From: an uncultured Lachnospiraceae bacterium
GTDB taxonomy: Bacteria > Bacillota > Clostridia > Lachnospirales > Lachnospiraceae
Length of the DNA stretch: 64,000 bases
Assembly (NCBI GenBank): GCA_949840805.1
Contig: CATKXR010000007.1
Location: forward strand, 62,001-126,000
Direction of reading: 5' to 3'
Each line of letters begins with the position of its first letter. Position 1 is the stretch's first letter. This document shows positions 18,658 through 18,776 of this stretch, in pieces. The position numbers and the translations under genes were made by a program. Below the pieces are notes generated by a model that worked only from the letters and a program-made list of their open reading frames with translations, had not been told where the DNA came from and ran no database searches.

Positions 18658-18776
18658 GGGACGCTCAGTCGTAGACTGATGCCTGTCCTGCAGATTGGTC
18701 TACGTAGGTTCGAATCCTACCGGTGAAAACCGTTGCTTAGTGGTAAAGCGATCAAATGACACCTGTCACGTGTCCC
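18658..18776 (+). ncRNA. Candidate Y-RNA-like ncRNA with circularly permuted tRNA-mimic domain
   Basis: Terminal stem GGGACGC (18658-18664) / GTGTCCC (18770-18776); T-arm GTAGG-TTCGAAT-CCTAC (18704-18720); CGGT-GAAA-ACCG (18721-18732); TT linker; D-arm GCTT-AGTGGTA-AAGC (18735-18749); anticodon-like stem TTGGTC (18695-18700) / GATCAA (18750-18755); hairpins TCAGTC-GTA-GACTGA and TGAC-ACCT-GTCA. Confidence 0.72.

Follow-up and report, generated by a model that had tools for sequence, protein, structure and literature searches.

A conserved structured RNA upstream of a slipin gene in Lachnospiraceae carries a circularly permuted tRNA mimic and probably belongs to an RNA-repair module

Circularly permuted tRNA genes occur in algae and archaea, and the bacterial Y RNA YrlA binds Rsr and PNPase and is modified by TruB and DusA. 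In eukaryotic vaults, the major vault protein is associated with vault RNA. Among RNA-repair systems, Burroughs and Aravind (NAR 2016) reportedly described modules of the SPFH/Band-7 type that include a novel tRNA-like RNA. Bacterial Y RNAs are 90-150 nt long and have a large stem in which their two ends pair (PMC8394870). YrlA has been proposed as a possible inhibitor of an anticodon nuclease, and tRNA halves trigger the RtcR response (PMC7790460). The rtc locus of P. aeruginosa contains an SPFH gene (PMC13086221).

Here, we analysed a window of 64,000 nucleotides, the whole stretch of DNA under study, from an uncultured Lachnospiraceae bacterium, in which a structured RNA lies between a divergent WYL regulator gene and a slipin gene. 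The features of the locus are as follows.

16086..18425, minus strand: divergent WYL-domain regulator of 779 aa (Pfam WYL, 38 bits; PADLOC WYL)
18513..18533, plus strand: box TTCGCAGTGTTTTTGAAATGA, recognised by alignment conservation
18553..18558, plus strand: -10-like TAGGAT at a constant distance from box TTCGCAGTGTTTTTGAAATGA, recognised by alignment conservation
18560..18657, plus strand: 5' domain of the RNA (RNAalifold, double changes in several helices)
18564-18576, plus strand: 5' domain hairpin CACC/GGTG (RNAalifold)
18581-18587 and 18643-18649, plus strand: 5' domain helix TTCCGGC/GCCGGAA, enclosing a GGTGCC...GGTATGCC motif
18659..18688, plus strand: hairpin 1, GGAC/GTCC and TCAGT/ACTGA
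18695-18700 and 18750-18755, plus strand: closing stem TTGGTC/GATCAA at the permutation point (helix in 19/19 sequences)
18704..18720, plus strand: T-arm mimic GTAGG-TTCGAAT-CCTAC (100% paired, two columns with double changes)
18721..18732, plus strand: acceptor-like stem sealed by GAAA, CGGT-GAAA-ACCG (double changes)
18733-18734, plus strand: TT linker
18735..18749, plus strand: D-arm mimic GCTT-AGTGGTA-AAGC with GG (double changes in 3/4 pairs)
18758..18774, plus strand: anticodon-arm mimic GACAC-CTGTCAC-GTGTC (double changes; loop that of tRNA-Asp GTC)
18783..19059, plus strand: 3' domain of the RNA, closed by a long-range helix 18793-18803/19039-19049
19091..20185, plus strand: slipin (SPFH/Band-7) of 364 aa (Pfam Band_7, 94.9 bits)

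A preliminary description made from the window alone had read the T-arm, the GAAA-capped stem, the TT linker, the D-arm and the TTGGTC/GATCAA stem as a permuted tRNA mimic, and all of these elements are present where they had been placed. At the gathering level, Rfam gave nothing in the window, ARAGORN found no canonical cloverleaf tRNA there, and the Rfam tRNA model scored 14.4 bits on the mimic, for the T-arm part alone. The region first described folds with a minimum free energy of -44.3 kcal/mol (RNAfold, z = -2.8). We searched with the slipin protein and obtained a close set of 18 loci from related Lachnospiraceae and Hungatella-type genomes, 17 of which have upstream sequence (the contig of L018 begins too late). 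The block of T-arm, capped stem and D-arm stands 5' of slipin in all 17 of these, about 300-600 nt ahead of its start, and the same arm order precedes slipin in most distant Bacillota loci. RNAalifold, to which no structure was supplied, recovered the T-arm, the capped stem, the D-arm and the 3' hairpin with double changes in 10 of 18 pairs; with the closing stem included, 11 of 24 pairs had double changes across 19 related loci, a value matched by 0 of 500 shuffles. The closing stem forms a helix of 5-7 bp in all 19 sequences when small register shifts are allowed, and has compensatory versions such as GCGAT/ATCGC, ATGAT/ATCAT and GATTGA/TCAATC. The mimic reading of the preliminary description is supported, with all arms covarying in the 19 loci. 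Some elements vary: hairpin 1 is absent or substituted in L015, L019, L021 and L022, the acceptor-like stem is longer in L005 (CTGCCTG-TTT-CAGGCAG), and the D-arm is degenerate in L062 and L078, which keep the T-arm and the capped stem. Two permuted modules occur in tandem within one RNA upstream of slipin in L057, L058 and L076. The slipin of L079 lacks such an RNA, and L080 was set aside as an unrelated slipin beside real tRNA genes.

The conserved RNA extends well beyond the mimic. In the 3' domain, double changes occur in 15 of the 34 named pairs, and the observed values are reached by 0 of 500 shuffles; the GGTGC..GTATGCC motif of the 5' domain also appears in distant loci. Conservation and covariation together delimit an RNA of about 500 nt at about 18560-19060, whose structured region stops about 30 nt short of the slipin start at 19091. 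The promoter, the start site near 18560-18566, the processing and the mature ends of the RNA at the window locus are what we infer from the sequence. The preliminary description missed this extent to about 19060, as well as the identity of the anticodon arm and the rtcB genes at homologous loci. That the RNA is real, conserved and structured, that it contains a permuted tRNA mimic and that it is linked to slipin we consider practically certain.

The hairpin at 18758-18774 has 5 bp and a 7-nt loop in nearly all relatives, with a weaker stem in L011. Its 3' strand GTGTC pairs with the GACAC just 5' of the loop, with 98.6% pairing and three double-change pairs. Across the 19 loci, the loops are CTGTCAC (8), CTGTCAA (5), CTTCCAA (2), CGGTCAC (2), CTTAAAA (1) and CTCCCAC (1). 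We compared them with the anticodon loops of real tRNAs called by ARAGORN in the fetched loci, where CTGTCAC belongs to Asp, CTTCCAA to Gly-TCC, CTTAAAA to Leu-TAA and CTGTTAA to Asn (Asn-GTT). Because they are the same as the real Asp, Gly-TCC and Leu-TAA loops, 11 of the 19 are exact copies of three tRNA identities. By their letters, CTGTCAA and CGGTCAC are near-Asp variants, and CTCCCAC we take to fit Gly-CCC. The distant L077 has the loop CTGTTAA, a fourth identity (Asn), in a hairpin one base after the D-arm, as in tRNA; in many distant members, no tRNA-like anticodon loop is present. As the 3' hairpin is a copy of an anticodon arm, all four tRNA arms are present, and their order of T, acceptor, D and anticodon is, as the aligned sequences read, that of a tRNA circularly permuted by a cut in the variable loop and closed at the acceptor end. 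The mimic thus resembles the permuted tRNA genes of algae and archaea in the permuted order of its encoded arms, but its acceptor end is sealed by a short loop, and it could therefore not become a normal charged tRNA without cutting of that loop.

The gene neighbourhood points to RNA repair. WYL genes adjoin the RNA and slipin in most homologous loci, and many relatives have two WYL proteins in place of the single one of the window. In L019, L021 and L005/L064, rtcB is placed between the WYL genes and the RNA; in L076 and L078 it is upstream of the RNA, and distant Clostridia (L058, L061-L063) have the order WYL, WYL, RNA, slipin, rtcB, with the WYL genes more distant in L061. The RNA accompanies slipin in loci with rtcB upstream, in those with rtcB downstream and in those without rtcB. 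No RNA-repair gene (RtcB, RtcR or RlaP) adjoins the RNA and slipin at the window locus, and such genes are present in relatives. The absence of RtcB recorded in the preliminary description therefore stands for the window locus, but homologous loci carry rtcB and the same genome encodes one RtcB, whose gene is on another contig; at the window locus, rtcB has been lost. The RtcB of the other contig has about 30% identity to the L021 type and 52-62% identity to the RtcB proteins encoded at L058 and L061-L063. Since relatives place the RNA and slipin together with RtcB, the RNA probably serves as the RNA component of a system that repairs damaged tRNA, and we hold its membership in an RNA-repair module to be very probable.

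Box TTCGCAGTGTTTTTGAAATGA is likely to be an operator or activator site of the WYL protein, judging from its conservation. It has one exact match in the genome of the window, and in distant loci it likewise stands ahead of rtcB or of the RNA. A WYL-box regulon common to this locus and the rtcB gene on contig C36 was considered and rejected, as there is no box upstream of that gene and the genome has no other good box. Two WYL-type boxes were seen in L061 (at 2532 and 5033), one by the WYL operon and one ahead of the RNA, which suggests possible autoregulation.

Slipin homologues were also found beyond Bacillota by searches of plasmid records, in E. coli, Citrobacter, Burkholderia and Photobacterium. 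The order in Citrobacter is rtcR, leader RNA, slipin and a gene for an RlaP-like nucleotidyltransferase; in E. coli it is leader RNA, slipin and RlaP (nucleotidyltransferase), with no rtcR seen beside them. Both leaders have a T-arm followed by a capped stem, and no D-arm was recognised in either. The E. coli leader occurs in 1632 of 5426 complete genomes (about 30%), and the match carries no annotation in the ten records listed. Leader RNAs upstream of slipin and RlaP were observed at L083:3700-3990 and L096:3501-3791, and a TGGCAC-type sigma54-like site lies upstream of the leader in L083. The RNA reportedly described in 2016 shares with ours the Band-7/slipin gene, the repair partners RtcB, RtcR and RlaP, and the tRNA-like character. 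A Band-7-associated tRNA-like RNA is thus reportedly known as a kind; the permuted form, the anticodon arm of changing identity, the frame of about 500 nt and the WYL control may be new.

We favour, somewhat above even chances, the reading that the RNA acts as the RNA partner within an SPFH-based tRNA-repair module. A WYL-controlled promoter would produce a structured RNA of about 500 nt ending just ahead of slipin, and an RtcB-type RNA-repair module would have the RNA and slipin at its core. The function of the RNA would lie mainly in the molecule itself, to which a soluble ring of slipin would bind. In favour of this reading are the constant place of the RNA before slipin, the covariation in the mimic and the 3' domain, the rtcB or rtcR/rlaP partners in relatives, the tRNA-like RNAs before slipin in Burkholderia and Photobacterium, the loops that match real tRNAs of four identities and the lack of a membrane segment in slipin; the distant members that have no tRNA-like anticodon loop and the L079 slipin without such an RNA weigh against it. 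The mimic, as an unchargeable tRNA, might recruit or hold tRNA-repair enzymes or bait anticodon nucleases, and the swapped anticodon loops might reflect which tRNA is attacked. At the window locus, the distant-type RtcB from the other contig may replace the lost local enzyme. The changing anticodon identity makes the question of bait or sensor directly testable. If the reading is correct, tRNA mimicry in repair operons extends past Ro60/Y RNA systems, and the mimics can be circularly permuted and switch the identity of their anticodon arm. In any case, Clostridia possess a large structured RNA without an Rfam family, unannotated, and tied to an SPFH protein and RNA repair.

As the main alternative, the RNA could be a cis-acting leader, the 5' UTR of slipin, whose mimic responds to damaged tRNA, to tRNA-binding proteins or to cleavage by anticodon nucleases and thereby switches the expression of slipin (and rtcB). 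The RNA always adjoins slipin on its 5' side and has the same orientation, which would fit such a leader, as would the structure that ends about 30 nt before slipin with no terminator found between the two, and the rtcB genes downstream in some loci. In L064, L021, L076 and L078, however, the RNA comes after rtcB and therefore cannot be a leader for that gene. It is also large for a leader, being about 500 nt long and having several domains that covary independently, as well as tandem tRNA modules in some loci, and no switching helix was recognised in it. We regard the leader as a possible but rather unlikely explanation.

A bolder version of the partner reading likens the locus to eukaryotic vaults, in which an SPFH protein that has beta repeats is likewise accompanied by an RNA. 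Hydropathy indicated no membrane segment in slipin, and in its AlphaFold2 model (pLDDT 85) a row of N-terminal beta units is joined by an SPFH domain and a long helix. With this model, Foldseek retrieved stomatin, HflK and prohibitin, and also the major vault protein, with an E-value of 3.6e-10 but a TM-score of 0.43; stomatin and HflK score equally or better. The resemblance is suggestive only, and slipin has just 364 aa. A vault-like particle would consist of a soluble SPFH ring or cage on a large RNA whose permuted tRNA mimics, with their exchangeable anticodon arms, lure anticodon nucleases; it would be coupled to repair by RtcB and be a distant relation of eukaryotic vaults. We regard it as a speculative and improbable proposal.

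The preliminary description had also considered a YrlA-class RNA with a terminal Ro60-binding stem. Such a Y RNA, tethering Ro60 (Rsr) to a nuclease, would agree with the order of T-arm, acceptor-like stem and D-arm, which is that of YrlA (RF02553), and RF02553 gives matches of 31-43 bits. On the window (18672-18772), however, a permissive search gave 30.8 bits where the gathering score is 69, and the same model gives 31.6 bits on tandem tRNA genes. The proposed terminal stem GGGACGC/GTGTCCC does form in the minimum-energy fold of the window, but of 14 relatives, 10 lack one of its two outer pairs and 9 the other, and its covariation is no better than that of shuffled columns; the local hairpins at 18659-18688 and 18758-18774 are preferred, with 97% pairing and compensatory changes. 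TROVE is absent from the window, as first described, and also from its genome, in an assembly of about 90% completeness; of 18 other genomes with studied slipin loci, 17 lack it too, so that a Ro60 partner is wanting in 18 of 19 genomes. With a score under the cutoff, an unconserved terminal stem, a length of about 500 nt and an extra anticodon arm, and with TROVE lacking, the RNA is not an established Y RNA, and we consider this identity very doubtful. By analogy, its permuted module resembles that of YrlA and may work alike.

Models of the YrlA type have a trap for their users in tandem tRNA genes, whose junctions mimic a permuted tRNA because the T-arm of one gene is followed by the D-arm of the next. 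Such junctions (L002:1482-1680; L026-L046) score 30-38 bits, and the second RF02553 match in the genome of the window (L002, 31.6 bits) was rejected as two adjacent tRNA genes. In a class-wide search with a covariance model of our own, the matches outside slipin loci resembled tandem tRNA junctions; 17 of 21 non-window matches were checked, and all overlap tRNA genes. The arm-order descriptor matched slipin-upstream RNAs and tandem tRNA gene arrays only (about 1 Mb scanned). That the RNA itself consists of decaying tRNA genes, whose junctions have the same arm order and match the same models, or is a functionless chance fold is refuted by the covariation and next to impossible, given the short sealed acceptor loop, the compensatory changes throughout, the conserved gene context and the single descriptor match in 10 Mb of Markov control sequence.

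Near the RNA/slipin locus, two adjacent genes of the window (9279-15173) are matches, though divergent ones, to the RADAR anti-phage proteins RdrA and RdrB, a pair of an AAA ATPase and an adenosine deaminase-like protein. Nearby phages gave no DNA match and a weak SPFH match alone. Outside Bacillota, tRNA-like RNAs of normal arm order were seen before slipin: two in tandem in Photobacterium (L087:3497-3638; called tRNA-??? and tRNA-Met by ARAGORN), and one in Burkholderia (L085:3666-3735), with a shortened anticodon hairpin (called tRNA-Phe AAA). Tandem tRNA arrays give the permuted arm order at their junctions, and the permuted form may have arisen from tandem normal-order copies such as those in Photobacterium.
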